Positions 292 to 36,147 of a DNA stretch of 36,147 bases are shown piece by piece. Position numbers and translations under genes: made by a program. The notes below the pieces were generated by a model. The model had not been told where the DNA came from and searched no databases. It saw only the letters and a list, made by a program, of their open reading frames with translations. The stretch lies in NCBI RefSeq assembly GCF_023256325.1, contig NZ_JAGDXI010000007.1, positions 1 to 36,147 of the forward strand, given 5' to 3'. How positions within the stretch are numbered: position 1 is the first letter of the stretch; every line of letters begins with the position of its first letter. Origin of the DNA: Caldisphaera sp. (lineage in GTDB: Archaea > Thermoproteota > Thermoprotei_A > Sulfolobales > Acidilobaceae).

Positions 292-2229
292 TTGAGCGAC
301 GAAGTCGATATTTCAGTAATGATAGGAGGACCTCAAGGAGGTGGAATAGAGTCCTCTGGCCAAATGTTGGTAAGAACTTTTATGATTAAAGGCTATGATG
401 TTTTTGGTATTAGAGAATATCATAGTAATATAATGGGTGCTCATAGTTATTATAATGTTAGATTTAAAAAAAATAGGCCAAGAAGCGTAAAGTTACCTGT
501 AGATGGCTTAATTGCTTTAGACGCAGAAACTATATTTACACATTATAATGAAGTTTCGCCTAAAAGTTTTGTAGTTTATGATATTGATATACTAAATACG
601 CCTATGGAAAGAATATCCCCTATGGAGCCTGAGGTTAAAGAAAGGGTAGGGGATGAGCTTAAAAAATTAGGAGTTGAACCTATAGCCTCGGAAGTGATAA
701 AATATCTTTCTAACAATGGAATAAAAACAGTAGGATTACCTCTTAAAAATCTCTTAAAAACGACAGCTGAAAAATTAAAAACAAATGTCGTTTCAGTAGC
801 TAAAACCGTTAATACAATGAGCATAACAGCTTCAGCGGCGTTATTAGGAATTGATGTAGAAACAATAGAGAAATCTATTAACTATTATTTTTATGGTAAA
901 AAATCTGTAATAGATTCTAATGTAATGGCAGCAAAAGTAGCATATGATTATGTAAAGGAAAACTTCGGTATTGGTAACCCTATAGAAGACGGACCCAATA
1001 AAAATAAGAGTAGAATGGTTGCAACAGGTAATGATATAGTGGCTATGGGAAAACTTGCAGGAGGGCTAACTTTAGAAACCTATTATCCAATTACTCCTTC
1101 TCAAGATGAAGCTTTCTATCTAGGAGAACATAGATACTTTAAGCTAGATGAATGGGCTTCAAAAGAATTAGGAGTTGAAAAGCTAGGAGTATTAGTATTT
1201 CAAGCCGAAGATGAACTTGGAGCACTAAATATGGCTATTGGAGGGGCTTTAGCAGGAGCAAGAACAGCAACAACAACAAGTGGTCCAGGATTATCATTAA
1301 TGAATGAAGCAATCAGTTTTTCTGTTATGGCTGAAGTACCCGTAGTGATAACAGTGTGGATGAGAGCAGGACCAAGTACAGGAGAAGCAACGAGACAAGG
1401 ACAACAGGATTTACTTCATTCAGTATTTGCAGGTCACGGTGATACGCCAAAAATTGTTATAGCAAGTGGAGATCATATAGAAGCATATTATGATGCTATG
1501 AAGTCATTAAATTGGGCTGAAAAATACCAAACGCCAGTTATTCATTTAGTTGATAAATATATTGCTTCCAGCATGATGAGTTTCGATAGAGAAGATGTAG
1601 ATCCTCAACTAGTCCCGATTGATAGAGGAAAATATATTACCGAAACAAAGAATGAAGACTACAAAAGATATGAGCTAACAGATGATTATATAAGTCCTAG
1701 GTCGCCTTTAGGAAAAAGACTTATGTGGGTAAGCAGTCTAACTCACAACGAATATGGTATGGTTACGGAAGATCCTATTACTAGAGAAAAAATGTTATTA
1801 AAAATTGCTAAAAAGATAGAAAATGCTGGAAAAGAAATACCTTTAAGCGAAAAGGTATCATTATATGGAGATCAAGATGCAAAGATAACAATAGTTTCAT
1901 GGGGATCAGCGAAAGGACCAATATTAGATGCCATGGACCTTCTCAGGAAAGATGGTATAAAAACTAGATTCCTACATATAAGAATGATGTCTCCATTCCC
2001 ATCAGAATATGTTACAAATATTTTAAATTCATCAGAACTTGTAGTTGATGTAGAAGCTAACGCTCTTTCACAGCTCGCTATGCTAGTTAAAATGAACACA
2101 GGATACGATATAAAGAAGAAAATAATTAAATTAACTGGTAGAACCATTATGGAACATGAGGCCTATAATGCATTGAAAATGGTAATTCAAAATAACCAAG
2201 ATTTGGTGGTGATAAGAGATGGCGCGTAA
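292..2229 (+). CDS. 2-oxoacid:ferredoxin oxidoreductase, subunit a (gamma-alpha fusion), copy 1
   Basis: Large subunit of the two-subunit, Sulfolobus-type enzyme that oxidatively decarboxylates 2-oxoacids with CoA to acyl-CoA and reduces ferredoxin in the cytosol. Residues about 1-220 are the gamma domain (GGPQGGG near the N-terminus); the alpha domain follows, with the family's YPITP motif at 265-269 and a GPSTG motif preceded by Arg358, likely the substrate-carboxylate-binding arginine described for the Sulfolobus enzyme. Its 645 residues are close to the family norm. The start is TTG at 292, chosen because GGTG at 281-284 is well spaced and no ATG fits. The last 11 bases overlap the b subunit gene, which supplies the thiamine diphosphate and Fe-S site. 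A paralog lies at 5387-7309. The real substrate cannot be told from sequence. Confidence 0.93.
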   Translation: MSDEVDISVMIGGPQGGGIESSGQMLVRTFMIKGYDVFGIREYHSNIMGAHSYYNVRFKKNRPRSVKLPVDGLIALDAETIFTHYNEVSPKSFVVYDIDILNTPMERISPMEPEVKERVGDELKKLGVEPIASEVIKYLSNNGIKTVGLPLKNLLKTTAEKLKTNVVSVAKTVNTMSITASAALLGIDVETIEKSINYYFYGKKSVIDSNVMAAKVAYDYVKENFGIGNPIEDGPNKNKSRMVATGNDIVAMGKLAGGLTLETYYPITPSQDEAFYLGEHRYFKLDEWASKELGVEKLGVLVFQAEDELGALNMAIGGALAGARTATTTSGPGLSLMNEAISFSVMAEVPVVITVWMRAGPSTGEATRQGQQDLLHSVFAGHGDTPKIVIASGDHIEAYYDAMKSLNWAEKYQTPVIHLVDKYIASSMMSFDREDVDPQLVPIDRGKYITETKNEDYKRYELTDDYISPRSPLGKRLMWVSSLTHNEYGMVTEDPITREKMLLKIAKKIENAGKEIPLSEKVSLYGDQDAKITIVSWGSAKGPILDAMDLLRKDGIKTRFLHIRMMSPFPSEYVTNILNSSELVVDVEANALSQLAMLVKMNTGYDIKKKIIKLTGRTIMEHEAYNALKMVIQNNQDLVVIRDGA

Positions 2230-3151
2230 TTGGTCTGATTATAAAACGAATTCTTGGGTACAATGGTGCCCTGCATGTGGTAACTTTGGTATATTATTAG
2301 CGATGCAAAAAGCATTAGCTGAATTGGACTTACCGCCAGAAAAAACATCTATAGTTTCTGGAATAGGTTGCTCTAGTAGAATTCCTTACTATGTAAAAAC
2401 ATCGAATATACATACTTTGCACGGAAGACCGATACCTGTTGCAGAGGGCATAAAATTAGCTAATCCAGAGCAAACAGTAATTGTTGCAAGCGGAGATGGT
2501 GATTTGTTAGGTATTGGAGCTGGGCACTTCGTTGCATTGGGAAGAAGGAATATGCAGATTGCAATATTATTGCACGATAATGCTGTCTATGGATTAACAA
2601 AAGGTCAAGCAGCACCCACTCTTCCTTTATGGTTAAAAACTAAGGCATTAGATGCACCAAATATACAATCACAAATTAATCCGCTTCTATTAGCCTTTGC
2701 AAGCGGATATACTTTTATTGCAAGAGCATATGCCTATCATGTTGATCAATTAAAAGATCTAATAAAATTAGCAATAAATCATAAGGGAACAGCTTTAATA
2801 GACATATTGCAACCATGTCCAACATACAATGATATAATGTCAAAAGAATGGTATGAAAAGAGAATATATTATTTAACTTCTGCAGACCCTTCATGGGATC
2901 CAAATATTTCTTCACAAGAAGACTTTGATATGAAAGCACCTAAAATATTAGATAAGATGACTGAATGGGGAGAAAAGATACCACTGGGCATATTTTATAG
3001 GAACATATCAATCGAACCCCTTGAAACTAGAATAGAAAAAATATTGCCAGGATATTTGCAATATCCACCGGCTAAAAGACCTATTGATATCAAATCAAAA
3101 CCAATAGTTCATCCATTTACAGAATTTAAAGACAGAATAGTACAAACATAA
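2219..3151 (+). CDS. 2-oxoacid:ferredoxin oxidoreductase, subunit b, copy 1
   Basis: Thiamine-diphosphate subunit (310 residues), forming the active enzyme with the a subunit encoded just upstream (11-base overlap, translational coupling likely). The four Fe-S ligands of this type are visible: Cys17 and Cys20 in WCPACGNFG, Cys51 in GIGCSSR, and Cys200 in QPCPTYN. The diphosphate/Mg region [12 protein letters not shown] is at 92-103 and the GLTKGQ segment near 125-130. Position 54, equivalent to the specificity residue Lys49 of the Sulfolobus enzyme, is Arg here but Lys in the second copy. Bases 2264-2343 are almost identical to the second copy, unlike the rest of the gene. No separate delta (ferredoxin-domain) subunit is encoded nearby, as is usual for this type. 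Confidence 0.93.
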   Translation: MARNWSDYKTNSWVQWCPACGNFGILLAMQKALAELDLPPEKTSIVSGIGCSSRIPYYVKTSNIHTLHGRPIPVAEGIKLANPEQTVIVASGDGDLLGIGAGHFVALGRRNMQIAILLHDNAVYGLTKGQAAPTLPLWLKTKALDAPNIQSQINPLLLAFASGYTFIARAYAYHVDQLKDLIKLAINHKGTALIDILQPCPTYNDIMSKEWYEKRIYYLTSADPSWDPNISSQEDFDMKAPKILDKMTEWGEKIPLGIFYRNISIEPLETRIEKILPGYLQYPPAKRPIDIKSKPIVHPFTEFKDRIVQT

Positions 3152-5386: not shown

Positions 5387-8255
<2,869 letters not shown>

Positions 8256-29435: not shown

Positions 29436-30703
29436 CTTGCTTTATTTTTTGGCGAAAATAATAAGCATTCTACTTCTCTTCCATTTTCTAGTTCAATTAG
29501 TTCTGGTGTCTCATATTGATATAATTTTAATGCTACACGACCATTTTCTTGGACAATATCTTTTATAGACAATAATGGCTTATAGTTCTCTTTTTCTATG
29601 TTTATTATTTCCTTTAATTTGTTAATATCAACATTATTTGCAATTAATTCTAACTCATTTTTAATTTCAACATTTGCATTAGTAAATTCTGTAAAATATT
29701 TAGTGTCAATTAAATAATCTAATGTTGGTTTAACTTCATCTGCTGTCCAACCACATGTTGGCAAAGCTACGGGACATCTCGGATGGAACCTGCATCCTTT
29801 TGGTGGGTTGATTAAATTAGGCGGATCACCTTTTAATATAATCCTTGCCTTAATTCTCTTTATTTGCGGGACTGCAGATATCAATGCTTGAGTATATGGA
29901 TGTTCTGGATTTTTAATAATATCGTTTTTAGAACCTTTTTCCATAATTTTACCCGCATACATAACAAAGACCCTATCTGCCATATAGGAAACGACAGATA
30001 TATTGTGAGTTATTAATAACATGGATATATTATACTTTTCTCTTAATTCTTTGAGAAGTTCCAAAATTTCTGCCTGTATAGACACATCTAAAGCGCTAGT
30101 AGGTTCATCAAGTATAACTAATTTAGGATTTGTTGCTATTCCTCTAGCCAATGCGACTCTCTGTCTTTGTCCCCCACTTAACTCATGAGGATATCTATAA
30201 CTAAACTCTCTTGGCAATTGAACTTCGTCTAATAACTCTAATACTCTTTCTTTAGCTTCATTACCCTTTAAATAACCAGTTTCTATAATTGGCTCAGCAA
30301 TTATATCTTCTATTTTTAACCTTGGATTTAATGATGAATATGGATCCTGAAATACTATCCCAACATTTCTTCTAAATTTCTTCAACTCATTTCCATGCAA
30401 TTTAGTAATAGAATATTTATCAACAATTTTTTTAATTGCATTATCATCTTTGTTTTTTAACGCTATATCGAATTCATCTAATTCTTTATCAGGTATATTA
30501 TAAAGAATTTCTCCTGAAGTTGGTTCTATAAGTCTAATCAAAAGTCTACCAAGGGTTGATTTCCCTGAACCGCTTTCTCCAACTAAGCCAACTATTTCTC
30601 CTTCTTTTATCTCAATGTTAACATCTTCCACTGCTCTAATCTTAGCGTTTTTTACCCCTTTAACATCAAAAAATTTGCTTAAGTTTCTAGCTGCTATTAT
30701 CAT
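29432..30703 (-). CDS. Peptide-type ABC transporter ATPase (OppF/DppF-like)
   Basis: 423 residues. Walker A GESGSGKST at 42-50, Q-loop VFQDPYSSLNP, signature LSGGQRQRVALARG, Walker B KLVILDEPTSALD and switch His (LLITHN) are all present. An Asp/Lys-rich insertion of about 35 residues lies between Walker A and the Q-loop. The C-terminal oligopeptide domain has GCRFHPRCPVALPTC, the Cys-rich region seen in this class and reported to hold an Fe-S cluster in some members, followed by a long tail ending at ECLLF. The ATG overlaps the stop of the upstream ATPase gene as ATGA. It powers import with the other ATPase. Confidence 0.93.
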   Translation of the reverse strand: MIIAARNLSKFFDVKGVKNAKIRAVEDVNIEIKEGEIVGLVGESGSGKSTLGRLLIRLIEPTSGEILYNIPDKELDEFDIALKNKDDNAIKKIVDKYSITKLHGNELKKFRRNVGIVFQDPYSSLNPRLKIEDIIAEPIIETGYLKGNEAKERVLELLDEVQLPREFSYRYPHELSGGQRQRVALARGIATNPKLVILDEPTSALDVSIQAEILELLKELREKYNISMLLITHNISVVSYMADRVFVMYAGKIMEKGSKNDIIKNPEHPYTQALISAVPQIKRIKARIILKGDPPNLINPPKGCRFHPRCPVALPTCGWTADEVKPTLDYLIDTKYFTEFTNANVEIKNELELIANNVDINKLKEIINIEKENYKPLLSIKDIVQENGRVALKLYQYETPELIELENGREVECLLFSPKNKAS

Positions 30704-32085
30704 GATTTACCACCTTCGTATAGAAAACATGAAACATAATGATCTTCACCGACTTTTATTAAATCGGGCCTTTTTTCTGCACATATTGGCATAGCATAAG
30801 GACATCTATCCCTAAACATACAGCCTTTTGGAGGATTCCTCATATCAGGAACTTCTCCCTTTATACCCTTTAGTTCATGAGCCTCAATAGTTGGTATAGC
30901 TTCCATTAGCATTTGAGTATAAGGATGCTTTGGTTGATCAAATATTGCATCTTTGTTGCCAACTTCAACAACTTGGCCTGCATACATTATTGCAATTCTA
31001 TCAGATACTTCTGCCAAAACTGACAAGTCATGTGATATAAACATATATGATGAATTTATGCTCTCTTTTAATTCTTTTATTAGTTCAAGAATTTGTGCTT
31101 GAATTGTTACATCTAAAGCGCTTGTAGGTTCATCAAGTATAACTAATTGGGGACTATTAATCATAGCAGTAGCTATAACTATTCTCTGTCTTTGTCCCCC
31201 ACTTAACTCATGAGGATACATATATACCATTTTATCAGAATTAGGAATTCCTAACAGACCTAAAAATTCGGATGCTTTCTTATAACCTTCTTTAATTAAT
31301 TCTCTTTTAACGATCCTTCCAAATATTGGTATTTTTGAGAAATTAGGTAACTTATTTTCTTTCTCAATTGTTTCTAAATAATTTTTAGCAAAAGAATTTA
31401 TTGGTTCACAGCATAGCTTTTCTATCATTTGCTCTTTTTTCAAGTCATGCAAATCCTTCCTTCTCCATATAGCTAATATTTGATCCTCCAAACCCATAAT
31501 ATTTTTCTCTTTTAAATATTCCCTAAATTTCTCATTAGGTCCGTTCTCATTTAATATTTTTACTAAAGCCTTTGTATCTTCTTTTTTAGCTCTTGACCTT
31601 GATAATCTTCTGCTTGCTAATAAACCTGGACTATGGTATAATAAAACTTCAGCAATTTGATACCCAACTTGAAGTAATGGGTTTAATGTTGTCATAGGTT
31701 CTTGAAATACCATAGAAATTTCTTGACCTCTTATTTTAGACATTTCATTGTTAACCTTTTTTAATACATCTGCATTTTTAGATGGCTTGAATTTTTTAGT
31801 GTTTTTATAATAATCTTTTAATGGCTTTAAATAATCCCTTCCATTTATTAATATTCTACCATCAACGACCGCAGCATTTCTAGGAATTAAACCCATAATT
31901 GCTCTTCCTAATGTACTTTTCCCACAACCACTTTCTCCTGCTATTCCTAAGACTTCTCCCTTCCTTATTTCTAGATTAACTCCATTTAATGCTTTATAAA
32001 CTCCTCTCCTAGTATAATAATGTAAGTGAAAGTTCTCAACCTTAACTATAGGAGCTAAATTGCTTTTTAATTGATCAGATTCCAC
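30700..32085 (-). CDS. Peptide-type ABC transporter ATPase (OppD/DppD-like) with a central insertion
   Basis: 461 residues, longer than the usual 320-340. Walker A GESGCGKST at 50-58, Q-loop VFQEPMTTLNP, signature LSGGQRQRIVIA, Walker B LVILDEPTSALD and switch His (FISHD) are intact. About 110 extra, charged, helical residues lie between the Q-loop and the signature (from about LASRRLSRSRAK to GRIVKRELIKEG), including CCEP. The C-terminal region GCMFRDRCPYAMPIC plus a later VSCFLY gives four Cys as in Fe-S-bearing members. GTG start at 32085 overlaps the permease stop by one base (TAGTG). Confidence 0.92.
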   Translation of the reverse strand: MESDQLKSNLAPIVKVENFHLHYYTRRGVYKALNGVNLEIRKGEVLGIAGESGCGKSTLGRAIMGLIPRNAAVVDGRILINGRDYLKPLKDYYKNTKKFKPSKNADVLKKVNNEMSKIRGQEISMVFQEPMTTLNPLLQVGYQIAEVLLYHSPGLLASRRLSRSRAKKEDTKALVKILNENGPNEKFREYLKEKNIMGLEDQILAIWRRKDLHDLKKEQMIEKLCCEPINSFAKNYLETIEKENKLPNFSKIPIFGRIVKRELIKEGYKKASEFLGLLGIPNSDKMVYMYPHELSGGQRQRIVIATAMINSPQLVILDEPTSALDVTIQAQILELIKELKESINSSYMFISHDLSVLAEVSDRIAIMYAGQVVEVGNKDAIFDQPKHPYTQMLMEAIPTIEAHELKGIKGEVPDMRNPPKGCMFRDRCPYAMPICAEKRPDLIKVGEDHYVSCFLYEGGKS

Positions 32086-32981
32086 TATAGCTCACTCCTC
32101 CTCCTGGGATCGATAACATCCCTAAACCCATCACCCATAAGATTTACTGCCAATGCAAATAAAACTATAAATAAACCCGGTATTATCATAGCCCAAGGAG
32201 CAGTTTGAATGTAGTTATATCCTAAGCTAGTTAAATATCCTAATTCAGGTAAGTTAGCTGCAGGCAAGAAACCTATAAACGCTAACGCTGATATAGTAAG
32301 CATTATAGTGCCTAAATCCAATGAGATTTGAACAAATACTGGAGGCAATGAATTAGGAAGAATGTGTTTAAACATTATCTTTAAGTTACTAGTTCCAGCA
32401 GCTCTTGCCGCCTCTATAAAAGTTAATTCCTTTGTTTCCAAAGTAACACTCCTTGCATACCTTGCATATAATGGCCACCAAACTAATATTAAAGCTATCA
32501 TCATACTTTGTAAAGTTCTACCCAAAACATAACCTATAGCTATTGCCAACACCAAATAAGGTATACTGAATACTATATCAGTTACTCTCATTAAAACCTC
32601 ATCAATCCATCCACCAAAATAAGTTGCTATTATCCCTACTACCAATCCTATAATTGCACCAGGTATAACTATTTCAAGGGATAACCAAAAGTCAAGTCTT
32701 ATAGATTTTATAATAGCATTTAATAAATCTACTCCGGGATAAGTAGTTCCAAAAGGATGCTTAAATGAAGGTGGTTGTGGTATTGGATTTGCATAATTTG
32801 GTGTTAATTGATAAGGATGCTTAAATGGTAAAATTTGAGGGAAAAATTGTAGTATTAAAGCATCAAAGAAATAGAATAGAAAAATTATTAGCCCAGCAAC
32901 AGCGGATTTATTTGAAAAAAATACCTGCAAAGAAAGCTTTAATTCTCTGAAGCGATCGGGTTTAGCATTACTTTTACTCAT
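32085..32981 (-). CDS. Peptide-type ABC transporter permease (OppC/DppC-like)
   Basis: 298 residues. About six hydrophobic segments: one near 23-47 after a basic head, then five between about 105 and 280. The ATPase-docking EAA loop is clear: EAARAAGTSNLKIMFKHILPNS. The periplasm-like first loop contains HPFGTTYPGVDLLNAI, typical of DppC. It ends GDGFRDVIDPRRRSEL, the family ending. It starts 15 bases after the other permease gene's stop, with a GAGGTGGG-type ribosome site in the gap. Confidence 0.93.
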   Translation of the reverse strand: MSKSNAKPDRFRELKLSLQVFFSNKSAVAGLIIFLFYFFDALILQFFPQILPFKHPYQLTPNYANPIPQPPSFKHPFGTTYPGVDLLNAIIKSIRLDFWLSLEIVIPGAIIGLVVGIIATYFGGWIDEVLMRVTDIVFSIPYLVLAIAIGYVLGRTLQSMMIALILVWWPLYARYARSVTLETKELTFIEAARAAGTSNLKIMFKHILPNSLPPVFVQISLDLGTIMLTISALAFIGFLPAANLPELGYLTSLGYNYIQTAPWAMIIPGLFIVLFALAVNLMGDGFRDVIDPRRRSEL

Positions 32982-32996
32982 CTTTCATTACCCACC

Positions 32997-34055
32997 TCAA
33001 TATCTTATTCTTGGATCAATCTTAGCGTAGATTAAATCTAGCGCTAAACTTGTTACAACTAATATTATTCCAAATAACAATGTACCGCCCATAATTCCTC
33101 CCATATCATTATTTATCATGGCATCTGTTAACCACATTCCTATACCAGGATAGGAAAAAACATCTTCAATTACAACAACTCCGCCTAAAAGACCTGCTAC
33201 CAAATATCCAAAGTTTGTTATTACCGGAAGCAATGCATTATTTTTTGCGTGCAAATTTATCACAACTTTTTCTGGAACACCCTTGGCTCTGGCAAAGTTA
33301 ACAAAATCTTGATCTAGAGTTTCAAGCATTGTACCTCTCATTAACCTTACAAGGGCTGCCATAACTCCTAATGCTAATGTTACAGATGGCATTATTAGAT
33401 GTAAGAATGCATTTCCAGCAACAACAAGATTACCATGTATTAATGCATCTATTAATAATATATGGGTTGGATATGATATACCATTGTGATACCATGAAAG
33501 ATCTGCAACTAAACTTGGATTAACAGTTCCATTTATTGGCAATATTTTTAACCATACTGCAAAAATTATTATAAGTATTATTCCTATTAAATACCATGGC
33601 ATTGCATAAAATGTAAGACTACCAACTCTAATAACATTATCAGAAGGTTTGTCTCTATTAACTGCTGTGTGTACCCCTAATGGAATTGAGATTAACCATA
33701 TTAATATAGCAGCAAATATAGTAAGCATTAAAGTATTTGGAAAGAATAATTCTATTGCCTGTGTAACTGGCCCACTAAATATTGGGGTGTTTGTTATTCC
33801 CCAATTACCTTGAAATATTTGTGCTAACCAATAAAAGTATTGTATATAAATTGGGTCATTAAAATGGAATTTTTGATCTAGTTCAGCTATTATTTGCTGT
33901 CTTGCAGCACCTGTTAACCTTGGGCTAAGATACATAGCTAGAAGCTTATTAGTGCCTCCAATGTGTATCAGAACAAATACTATTACAGTCAATCCTAACA
34001 ATGTAGGTATAAACAGTAACACTCTTCTTAAAGCGTACTGCCAGAGCTTTATAAT
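32997..34055 (-). CDS. Peptide-type ABC transporter permease (OppB/DppB-like) with a non-standard start
   Basis: About 352 residues if translation starts at ATT 34053-34055 (or ATA 34050-34052). In-frame residues upstream of GTG 34022 read IIKLWQYALRR and join VLLFIPTLLGLT, the normal N-terminus of these permeases, while GTG 34022 would cut into the first membrane helix and has no Shine-Dalgarno. A strong GGAGG lies six bases before the ATT. Six membrane segments follow, with the EAA-type loop FVNFARAKGVPEKVVINLHAKN and the closing DLIYAKIDPRIRY. It forms the channel with the DppC-like permease. Confidence 0.9.
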   Translation of the reverse strand: MIKLWQYALRRVLLFIPTLLGLTVIVFVLIHIGGTNKLLAMYLSPRLTGAARQQIIAELDQKFHFNDPIYIQYFYWLAQIFQGNWGITNTPIFSGPVTQAIELFFPNTLMLTIFAAILIWLISIPLGVHTAVNRDKPSDNVIRVGSLTFYAMPWYLIGIILIIIFAVWLKILPINGTVNPSLVADLSWYHNGISYPTHILLIDALIHGNLVVAGNAFLHLIMPSVTLALGVMAALVRLMRGTMLETLDQDFVNFARAKGVPEKVVINLHAKNNALLPVITNFGYLVAGLLGGVVVIEDVFSYPGIGMWLTDAMINNDMGGIMGGTLLFGIILVVTSLALDLIYAKIDPRIRY

Positions 34056-34079
34056 TCATCCCCTCCGCTATTACAAACT

Positions 34080-34098
34080 AACTCTAGAGTTTAAAAAG
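34080..34098 (-). promoter_or_regulatory. TATA box and adjoining 12-bp palindrome of the permease operon
   Basis: On the minus strand CTTTTTAA (34091-34098) is a TATA candidate about 40 bases before the ATT start, and AACTCTAGAGTT (34080-34091) is a perfect palindrome right next to it, between TATA and the expected transcription start near 34068. The position suits a repressor. So transport genes may be expressed from here as well as by read-through from the binding-protein gene. Confidence 0.4.
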
Positions 34099-34156
34099 AG
34101 ATTGAAAAGAAAAAAAGTTATCGTTTAGATTTAAAAAGTTTTATTTATATTGGTAT

Positions 34157-36147
34157 TTATCCTTTAACCCACCAGTAATATAATGAGTCTCCGCCCCCTC
34201 CAATCATTGGATTTTCTTCATAGCTTATTTGATTATTAAATCCATGCATATATGGCTTTATTATCCAATATGCATTTGGCATTTGTGTGTATACATATAG
34301 ATAGAGATTGATTGCTATTTGTTCTGCTTGTTTATAGTATTGTTGAGCTGCAGTTGTATTACCTGATTCAGCTGCATTGTCTGCCATTAATATTAAATTA
34401 TTTAATTCATTATACTGTTGTGATTCATTTGCATATAGTTGTGATAAAAATGTATTTCCTTGTGAAGCGTAGTATTTACTCAAATTCTCGAAATAAGAAA
34501 CTGTCCATCCATTAGGTGCTGGGTAAGTTCCTCCTTGTAAGTACATTGCATTAACGAAGTCGCTTGCCAATGGATAATCAGCTATCCAACCTAGATAATA
34601 AATCGGCATTGGATTTGCTCCGGGAACTTCATAGCTTATTATGGTTGAAAATGGTACATATAAAGGTGTTGCAGTTATGTGTGGATCCATTTCATTCAAT
34701 AATGATGCCCACATAGCAGCTGCAGTGAAATCAACAGTATCACCGCTTGATACTATTATTGGGAAGTTAACTGTTATATTGTAATATCCTGATTCTTCCA
34801 TTAATTGCTTTGCATAAGTTAAATTAAATGTTGGGCAGCCTGTTAATTCTGATGGAGGTATGTAATAAGGTAAACCAGGTATTATAACTCCACAATATGG
34901 ACTTGCAAAATTAAAATGATATTTTACATTACCAACTATATCATTTAAATATTCTGTGTAATTAAATGCGTAAGCGAATGCTTTCCTAACTAATGGGTTT
35001 GCAAAATAATATGATGGTATATTATAATTCGGATTGATGCTTTTAAGTATAGATGTATTAACATTTAATGTGAATGCAAAGAAGTTTTCTGTAAACGTCG
35101 GGTAAACATATATTGACGCTTGTCCATTAGATTCTAGGTTTAATAGAAGCGGTACATAATCAGGAGGTATGTTAGTTAATATATCTGCTTGACCAGATGC
35201 GAACATTTCATATGCAGTATTTGGATCTTTAACCCAATAAATTATAACTGTATTATTTGGTTTTGGTATATCAGGTATATTATTAGGCCAATAGGGATTT
35301 GGAACTAAAACAATGCTTTGGCCAGGTGTATATGATTTTATCATATATGGTCCTGATGTTACAGGTGACCATTGAACTTTTGTATTATAATTGCCTTCGT
35401 TTGCTTGCTGTTCATATTGGTAAAAACCTGCAGGCGTGAAATTAATGCCTGCACCAACTTGTTCTAACCATTTAGCATCATATACAGATGCCTCAGACTC
35501 TGTTAAGATACTGAAGAATAGTTGAGGATTAACTCTTTCAGATAAGTTAAAAGTTACCGTATCTGTTTGATTATTGTATGTTATTGAATTCATAATTTCA
35601 TTGAACCCTAGTGTATCATTTGGCGAAGTAACTATTGGCATGAATTCACTATAATTGGGTATTAAGTATTGTGCTAATTCATATCCTGGAGTGGGTGGAA
35701 CACCTCCGGAACATAATAATGATCTTACTATAGAATACCAAACGTCGTATGCTGTTAAATTGTCGCCATTAGCAGCTTTAAGATTGGGCCTAATTTTAAA
35801 TGTATACATTGTATAGTTAGGCGAAATACCACCATATAAGTTTCTTTGAGACCAATTACCAACTGTTGGTATGTATTCTGCAGCCATTGGTAGGAATTTA
35901 GACGTGCTTGAACCATTATATATCACTAGAGTAGAATATATGTTTCTGATGATTTCTTCTCCAACAACTTCTAGATCTATATCTGCGTCAAAAGAATAAG
36001 GTCCTCCAGGTACATTTTCCGCAACTATTATTGTACCAGGATTAGGTATGTTTAAGCTTGATGTAAAAATTTTAAATACCAAACTGCTATTAGATACTGC
36101 AACTGTTTGATATGTTGTATAATTATATGTTTTTCCTGATGATACGT
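34157..36147 (-). CDS. ABC transporter substrate-binding protein, family 5 (partial, N-terminus outside window)
   Basis: The frame is open from the window end to a TAA at 34157, at least 663 codons; no start or signal peptide is visible, so the N-terminus lies beyond 36147. Extracytoplasmic peptide/oligosaccharide-binding protein: AADGDNLTAYDVWYS-like segment (here AANGDNLTAYDVWYSIVRSL), TSGPYMIKSYTPGQSIVLVPNP, the FASGQADILTNIPP region, VRKAFAYAFNYTEY, and GWIADYPLASDFVNAMY near the end. Many N-x-S/T sites fit a glycosylated surface protein. It ends without a membrane helix, so the anchor is presumably N-terminal. It is 101 bases upstream of the permease genes, same strand. Confidence 0.93.
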   Translation of the reverse strand, partial: VSSGKTYNYTTYQTVAVSNSSLVFKIFTSSLNIPNPGTIIVAENVPGGPYSFDADIDLEVVGEEIIRNIYSTLVIYNGSSTSKFLPMAAEYIPTVGNWSQRNLYGGISPNYTMYTFKIRPNLKAANGDNLTAYDVWYSIVRSLLCSGGVPPTPGYELAQYLIPNYSEFMPIVTSPNDTLGFNEIMNSITYNNQTDTVTFNLSERVNPQLFFSILTESEASVYDAKWLEQVGAGINFTPAGFYQYEQQANEGNYNTKVQWSPVTSGPYMIKSYTPGQSIVLVPNPYWPNNIPDIPKPNNTVIIYWVKDPNTAYEMFASGQADILTNIPPDYVPLLLNLESNGQASIYVYPTFTENFFAFTLNVNTSILKSINPNYNIPSYYFANPLVRKAFAYAFNYTEYLNDIVGNVKYHFNFASPYCGVIIPGLPYYIPPSELTGCPTFNLTYAKQLMEESGYYNITVNFPIIVSSGDTVDFTAAAMWASLLNEMDPHITATPLYVPFSTIISYEVPGANPMPIYYLGWIADYPLASDFVNAMYLQGGTYPAPNGWTVSYFENLSKYYASQGNTFLSQLYANESQQYNELNNLILMADNAAESGNTTAAQQYYKQAEQIAINLYLYVYTQMPNAYWIIKPYMHGFNNQISYEENPMIGGGGDSLYYWWVKG

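Follow-up and report, generated by a model that had tools for sequence, protein, structure and literature searches.

Which codon begins translation of a permease gene that lacks ATG, GTG and TTG where its protein family begins, and why would such a start be kept? The gene lies in a stretch of 36,147 nucleotides, here called the window, which corresponds to contig C28 in the 1.52 Mb genome (G000) of an archaeon from the genus Candidatus Hestiella (Acidilobaceae). The minus strand of the window encodes a peptide-type ABC transporter composed of a substrate-binding protein, two permeases (B and C) and two ATPases. AUH denotes AUA, AUU or AUC throughout.

The transporter genes and the start region

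34157..36145, minus strand: substrate-binding protein (SBP_bac_5), cut by the contig end; PF00496, E 1.1e-45
32997..34052 (stop included), minus strand: DppB/OppB-type ABC permease, 351 aa if read from AUA; PF00528, E 7.7e-34
32085..32981, minus strand: DppC/OppC-type permease, ATG start; PF00528, E 7.3e-32
30700..32085, minus strand: DppD/OppD-type ATPase, GTG start; PF00005 and PF08352
29432..30703, minus strand: DppF/OppF-type ATPase, ATG start; PF00005 and PF08352

The first permease is assigned to the DppB/OppB type by its PF00528 (BPD_transp_1) score of 117.5, compared to a cut-off of 26.4, and by its neighbors on the same strand, namely a family 5 substrate-binding protein, a second permease and two oligo_HPY ATPases. 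Its best solved chain is that of E. coli DppB (8z1v_A, E 1.3e-49), and E. coli DppB (PDB 8z1v) and Mycobacterium Rv1283c (PDB 8j5q) belong to the same protein family. The best NCBIfam match, Opp2B, scored 236.7 bits and falls short of the equivalog cut-off of 350 at which a named transporter, and with it a substrate, would be assigned. Elsewhere, the window holds two pyruvate-type ferredoxin oxidoreductase loci at 292-3151 and 5387-8255, with Pfam matches for 292-2226, 2219-3148 and 5387-7306.

Read on the minus strand from 34058, the start region of the permease is TGA ATT ATA AAG CTC TGG CAG TAC GCT TTA AGA AGA GTG. A first-pass annotation had described 11 codons free of ATG, GTG and TTG between this TGA and the GTG at 34022, a GGAGG six bases before ATT, a TATA box, and a nearby ATG in another frame. 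Each of these is present in the sequence, and the elements are listed below from the promoter inward. The Hestiella genomes are five, namely G000 (the window genome), G001, G002, G003 and G004.

34090..34098, minus strand: TATA-like box CTTTTTAAA, within an A/T box that aligns across the five Hestiella upstream regions
34062..34066, minus strand: Shine-Dalgarno (SD) motif GGAGG, 9 nt before ATA and 6 nt before ATT; duplex energy -10.5 kcal/mol
34057..34059, minus strand: out-of-frame ATG, predicted not to be used; 2 nt after GGAGG, while orthologues have AUH or ATG directly before K/N/R-L-W
34056..34058, minus strand: in-frame TGA stop, read from the sequence, which closes the frame upstream
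34053..34055, minus strand: ATT codon, the next best start, not conserved as such; orthologues conserve only the codon adjoining K/N-L-W
34050..34052, minus strand: AUA, the predicted start codon of the permease; other lineages have ATG/GTG starts at the aligned position, and 12 more genomes of the order have ATA/ATT/ATC there
34020..34022, minus strand: first in-frame GTG, rejected as a start; nine conserved residues precede it

With transcription directed by the TATA-like box, the leader would be about 16 nt long. A second AT-rich block, TTTTTAAATCTAAACGATA (34119-34137), is conserved upstream of the gene in G000, G003 and G004, not in G001 or G002, and could be an alternative promoter.

The start codon across orthologues

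The start codons described for archaea are AUG, GUG and UUG (PMC7531240). Close orthologues of the permease, defined by an E value of 1e-80 or better, were found in 17 of the 214 genomes of the order that were searched, and in all 17 the codon directly before K/N/R-L-W is ATN (13 AUH, 4 ATG). Among the Hestiella genomes it is ATA in G000, G001, G002 and G004 and ATT in G003; in the sister genus, G013, G022 and G045 have ATA and G044 has ATC. The genus that holds Metallosphaera yellowstonensis has ATT in G184, G185 and G189, ATC in G187 and ATG in G188, and the codon is ATG in G200, G201 and G202. Among other archaeal records, six homologues (L034, L038, L039, L040, L041, L045) have ATG at this position and two (L042, L043) have GTG. 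Two homologues from a distant lineage, Methanomassiliicoccales (L046 and L047), have CTG at the permease start codon before position 3001, with strong SD motifs (-12.9 and -11.3). Start codons of these other records were taken from part of 80 loci, leaving out mostly the more distant ones. L032, L033, L035, L036, L037 and L044 duplicate contigs in G001, G002, G200, G189, G044 and G004 and were counted once, and L048, L049 and L051 (ATG at the aligned codon) and L052 and L053 (ATG two codons on) stand outside the counts.

The comparisons place the start of translation at the AUH codon, since the ATG starts found elsewhere match it, seven of the first nine permease codons vary synonymously among the five Hestiella genomes, and the DNA just upstream of it in the same genomes has indels and stops. 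The N-terminus of E. coli DppB falls at the same place, within two residues of the window AUA. These comparisons support a start at the codon before K-L-W, which in the window is the ATA at 34052-34050. The first-pass annotation had left the choice at ATT or ATA; a non-canonical start is backed by the orthologues, and the choice goes to ATA, because it is there that coding conservation begins, which argues against both the ATT and the GTG at 34022. Although the 6-nt spacing from GGAGG to ATT is acceptable, a start at ATT 34055 in the window genome is very unlikely, as AUH stands directly before K/N-L-W in the other 12 AUH genomes, with an SD-to-AUH spacing, read by eye where the SD core is clear, of about 8-10 nt, like that of ATA.

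Still less probable is a shorter permease translated from the GTG at 34022, the first canonical in-frame codon in the window, or from some other canonical codon in relatives. Some support for it comes from G184 and G187, which have ATG at codon 4, three codons past AUH, so AUH is not the sole nearby choice in those two genomes; K-L-W is nevertheless kept in both. In the window, the residues KLWQYALRR upstream of the GTG are conserved with synonymous change, and the SD lies 39 nt from the GTG, compared to 9 nt from AUA. The first canonical codon in G013 and G022 is number 28 or 39, and a start there would, judged by eye, remove most of the first membrane helix. The position of the E. coli DppB N-terminus also argues against a downstream start.

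The out-of-frame ATG at 34059-34057 had raised the concern that a sequencing or assembly slip hides an in-frame ATG, an explanation of negligible probability that is refuted by the comparison with relatives suggested at the time, in which AUH stands at the homologous codon in twelve other genomes of the order, including four other Hestiella and four sister-genus genomes. In nine of the 13 AUH genomes, the stretch from the upstream stop to AUH is free of canonical codons. The other four have an in-frame GTG upstream (at -6 in G003 and at -4 in G185, G187 and G189), which we rejected as a start given its position in or at the edge of the SD and its absence from the nine. An mRNA intron supplying an upstream ATG was judged improbable, given that in homologues an ATG occupies the very codon in question.

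In a tree of 24 rows, AUH occurs in all eight Acidilobaceae rows and in four of the five rows of the Metallosphaera yellowstonensis genus, both groups being well supported. The two AUH groups are not sisters in the best tree, which has at least three changes of start-codon class and seven codon changes, counts that cannot tell gain from loss of AUH; since the backbone is unresolved, a single origin of AUH would also fit. Because of a broken reading frame in its orthologue, G004 was omitted from the tree and from the third-base test described below; its start codon and SD were included in the counts. This G004 orthologue (L008/L044, 553-1573) is split in two frames with two TAA, either by an assembly error or as a pseudogene.

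Shine-Dalgarno strength and other genes with AUH starts

The SD motifs of the 13 AUH orthologues have duplex energies of -6.9 to -13.1 kcal/mol (median -10.5), compared to 0.7 to -8.9 (median -4.6) for 12 homologues with AUG or GUG, both calculated with the 16S tail AUCACCUCC; the one-sided p of 4e-05 comes from a test that ignores relatedness. Three other 16S tails gave a difference in the same direction, and the end of the 16S gene of G003 is GGATCACCTCCT. The CTG homologues L046 and L047 were set apart in this comparison; with them placed among the non-AUH homologues (n=14), the medians are -10.5 and -4.7 (p 0.0008). When kinship is taken into account, two to three independent pairs are available, the usable pairs nearly always agree, and p is 0.5. 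As a background, 277 ATG-first ORFs of G003 have a median SD energy of -5.2, which all 13 AUH orthologues surpass; 5.4% of these ORFs reach the SD strength of the window permease and 10.1% that of the G003 permease. Within the Metallosphaera group, the sole ATG (G188) is accompanied by the weakest SD, -5.4 versus -10.6 to -12.7 in its four congeners. Exceptions to the pattern are G202, with ATG and a fair SD (-8.9), and G013, with ATA and a modest one (-6.9). In this gene, then, a strong SD appears to go together with a weak start codon, with perhaps two or three independent events behind the link.

Three further Hestiella genes, encoding DUF1614, MscS and EamA proteins, repeat the combination of AUH and a strong SD. 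DUF1614 has ATT in G000, G003 and G004 and, one codon on, ATG in G001 and GTG in G002; its SD energies are -11.5 to -11.7 with AUH versus -6.8 and -7.0 in the two relatives with canonical starts. MscS has ATT in the same three genomes and GTG at the same codon in G001 and G002 (-7.2 to -8.1 with AUH versus -3.6 and -3.9 in the two relatives). EamA has ATT in G000 and G003, ATA in G004 and ATG at that codon in G030 (-7.4 to -8.3 versus -6.8 in this one canonical relative); G002 has neither AUH nor a canonical codon at the start position, and G001 gave no match. A DUF1614 gene of another genome (L169, G007) has a frame that opens right after TGA, contains no ATG, GTG or TTG in its first 29 codons and is preceded closely by TTGAGGTG, and is perhaps another unusual start.

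Other candidates are less uniform. An NTP transferase gene (G003 C1:684068; L265-L267) has AUH codons at its N-terminus in three Hestiella genomes, with several candidate starts and no canonical codon there except a TTG a few codons on in two genomes. GH15 has AUH in G003 only; in relatives the codon is GTG, or an ATG lies no more than two codons away from it. In Sulfolobaceae, a Rossmann FAD protein (L292-L299) has ATC at its N-terminus in seven of eight genomes, one codon after an in-frame stop; G200 has TGAATG instead, and G185 also has a GTG a few codons on. The ATC overlaps the 3' end of an apparent upstream reading frame, as read from the sequence, and this overlap confounds the AUH call. 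The idea that all AUH genes encode membrane proteins was ruled out, as the NTP transferase and the FAD oxidoreductase belong to families of soluble proteins.

These genes come from scans for an SD followed by an AUH that lies six or more codons ahead of the first canonical start, which retrieved 12 of 917 ORFs (673 in 760 kb of G003 and 244 in 250 kb of G000, including the window). The scan misses true cases, as the G003 permease orthologue escaped it because of its upstream GTG. Six of the 12 ORFs were compared with orthologues (permease, MscS, EamA, DUF1614, GH15 and NTP transferase), and the first four of these hold AUH in at least three congeners; in G187, one of six scan matches, the FAD protein, was compared in this way. 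An earlier and looser scan of 581 ORFs, the source of the first three candidates, gave 80 matches, many of them internal to ORFs, and a pairing of G003 and G000 ORFs (69 pairs) flagged the permease together with many non-coding frames and was not used for counts. Replacing AUH by other codon sets gave no AUH excess in G003 (AUH 11, AAH 14, GAH 7, ACH 6, CTH 5, TTH 4, GTH 3) or in G187 (AUH 12, AAH 11, GAH 10, ACH 4, CTH 6, TTH 5, GTH 6), and for this reason only the orthologue comparisons count, the scan giving no genome-wide frequency.

How an AUH start may be read and kept

The permease start is homologous in position to AUG, is conserved across species and lies behind a strong SD (-10.5 in the window), the features expected of an attenuating AUH start. 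The reading that we regard as probable is that the initiator Met-tRNAi, with anticodon CAU, would read the AUA at 34052-34050 with a third-base mismatch, while the strong SD 9 nt upstream would keep the 30S subunit positioned. Selection would then maintain the pair of weak codon and strong SD for a low or moderate initiation rate of the membrane subunit. The binding protein, the partner of the permease, is usually needed in excess, and the AUH start could act as a set-point, a brake on the membrane subunit. Both the initiation efficiency and the selection for low output are what we infer from the sequence comparisons. An initiator tRNA is marked by A1-U72 and a G-C anticodon stem. Inspection by eye of the 46 tRNA matches in G003 gave one initiator-like tRNA, with the anticodon CAT, and no special initiator with another anticodon, so that reading AUA, AUU and AUC would require a mismatch at the third base. 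A1-U72 is also present in two tRNA-Gln genes, but these carry Gln anticodons. A dependence on the SD has a precedent in Sulfolobus acidocaldarius, where removing the SD from a leadered reporter abolished protein production, although, according to the authors, it is uncertain what part SD motifs play in archaea generally (PMC11627041).

An alternative, possible but a good deal less likely, is that the AUH start is tolerated and not tuned: with a very strong SD the codon would matter little, and AUG would have decayed to AUH and drifted among A, T and C without selection. The interchange of AUA, AUU and AUC between relatives fits this, as do SD motifs that in every AUH case exceed the G003 median. 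In the third-base test, G is absent from all eight Acidilobaceae at 16 of 67 four-fold sites, so the missing AUG could be chance; yet at each of the nine conserved Lys/Glu/Gln sites one or more of the eight genomes has G, indicating that third-position G is common. The absence of an ATG start from the eight Acidilobaceae is therefore only suggestive. Further points against drift are that AUG is normally favored, yet AUH has been retained throughout two genera and in most members of a third, and that the only ATG in the Metallosphaera group pairs with a weak SD.

The first-pass annotation had also linked AUU/AUA starts to regulated translation, a tie that is plausible, with low fixed expression being as good a reading of the same sequences. 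As a specific proposal, that output follows start-codon stringency, set by the aIF1 level or by 16S dimethylation, as an archaeal parallel of infC autocontrol, seems to us rather improbable. aIF1 of S. solfataricus favors discrimination against non-canonical starts (PMC6237735, PMC8211752), non-AUG starts are over-represented among proteins whose levels rise in KsgA/Dim1 deletion strains of H. volcanii and E. coli (PMC7897474), and the AUA start of S. aureus ccpN is medium-dependent, but the AUU start of cvfC1 shows no medium effect (PMC13009471). All five Hestiella genomes have a KsgA/Dim1-family match; this also discounts loss of the enzyme as the cause of the AUH starts. Against regulation, no regulator was found, the AUH genes have no obvious common function, and in four sequences the permease leader formed no hairpin that clearly outdid shuffled controls (z-scores -0.74 to 1.02).

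In bacteria, infC encodes the factor that judges start codons, IF3, and so controls itself; archaea use aIF1. The permease resembles infC in its AUH start, and in infC the weakness of the codon is the point, but a permease does not judge start codons and cannot control itself as infC does. The AUU/AUA start of infC is treated in PMC13009471, with reference entries in PMC9845219. We speculate, with considerable doubt, that Sulfolobales keep a small class of genes with AUH starts behind strong SD motifs, which would form a stringency-sensitive switch read by aIF1 and the 16S modification state and would be the first such class to be described in archaea. Its members would be the permease, DUF1614, MscS and EamA genes, and perhaps those of the NTP transferase, the secreted GH15 and the overlapping FAD oxidoreductase.

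A literature search, with most subscription papers outside its reach, turned up no previous account of AUH starts being conserved within Sulfolobales or Acidilobaceae. The nearest archaeal case that it found appears to be the Asgard tubulin AtubA of Kariarchaeaceae, for which, as here, an ATT start was proposed from N-terminal homology and spacing to the ribosome-binding site; unlike the permease, AtubA is one gene, and conservation of its start codon is not described in the available part of PMC13394414. AUH starts kept in two archaeal families, including in Metallosphaera yellowstonensis, would offer a natural substrate for asking how aIF1, aIF1A and the SD judge near-cognate codons, and gene finders limited to ATG, GTG and TTG would truncate or misplace such N-termini. 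The closest functional parallel is in S. aureus, where cvfC1 (AUU) and ccpN (AUA), with extended SD motifs, have attenuating non-canonical starts; in poor medium, output from three non-canonical reporters was about 10% of that from AUG, and for ccpN it reached up to 30% in rich medium (PMC13009471). Like these genes, the permease combines a conserved AUA/AUU start with a strong or extended SD. The S. aureus starts are bacterial and were established by Ribo-Ret and reporters, compared to the genomic evidence from archaea presented here, and in the permease, unlike in S. aureus, the third base of the start codon interchanges among A, U and C between species.
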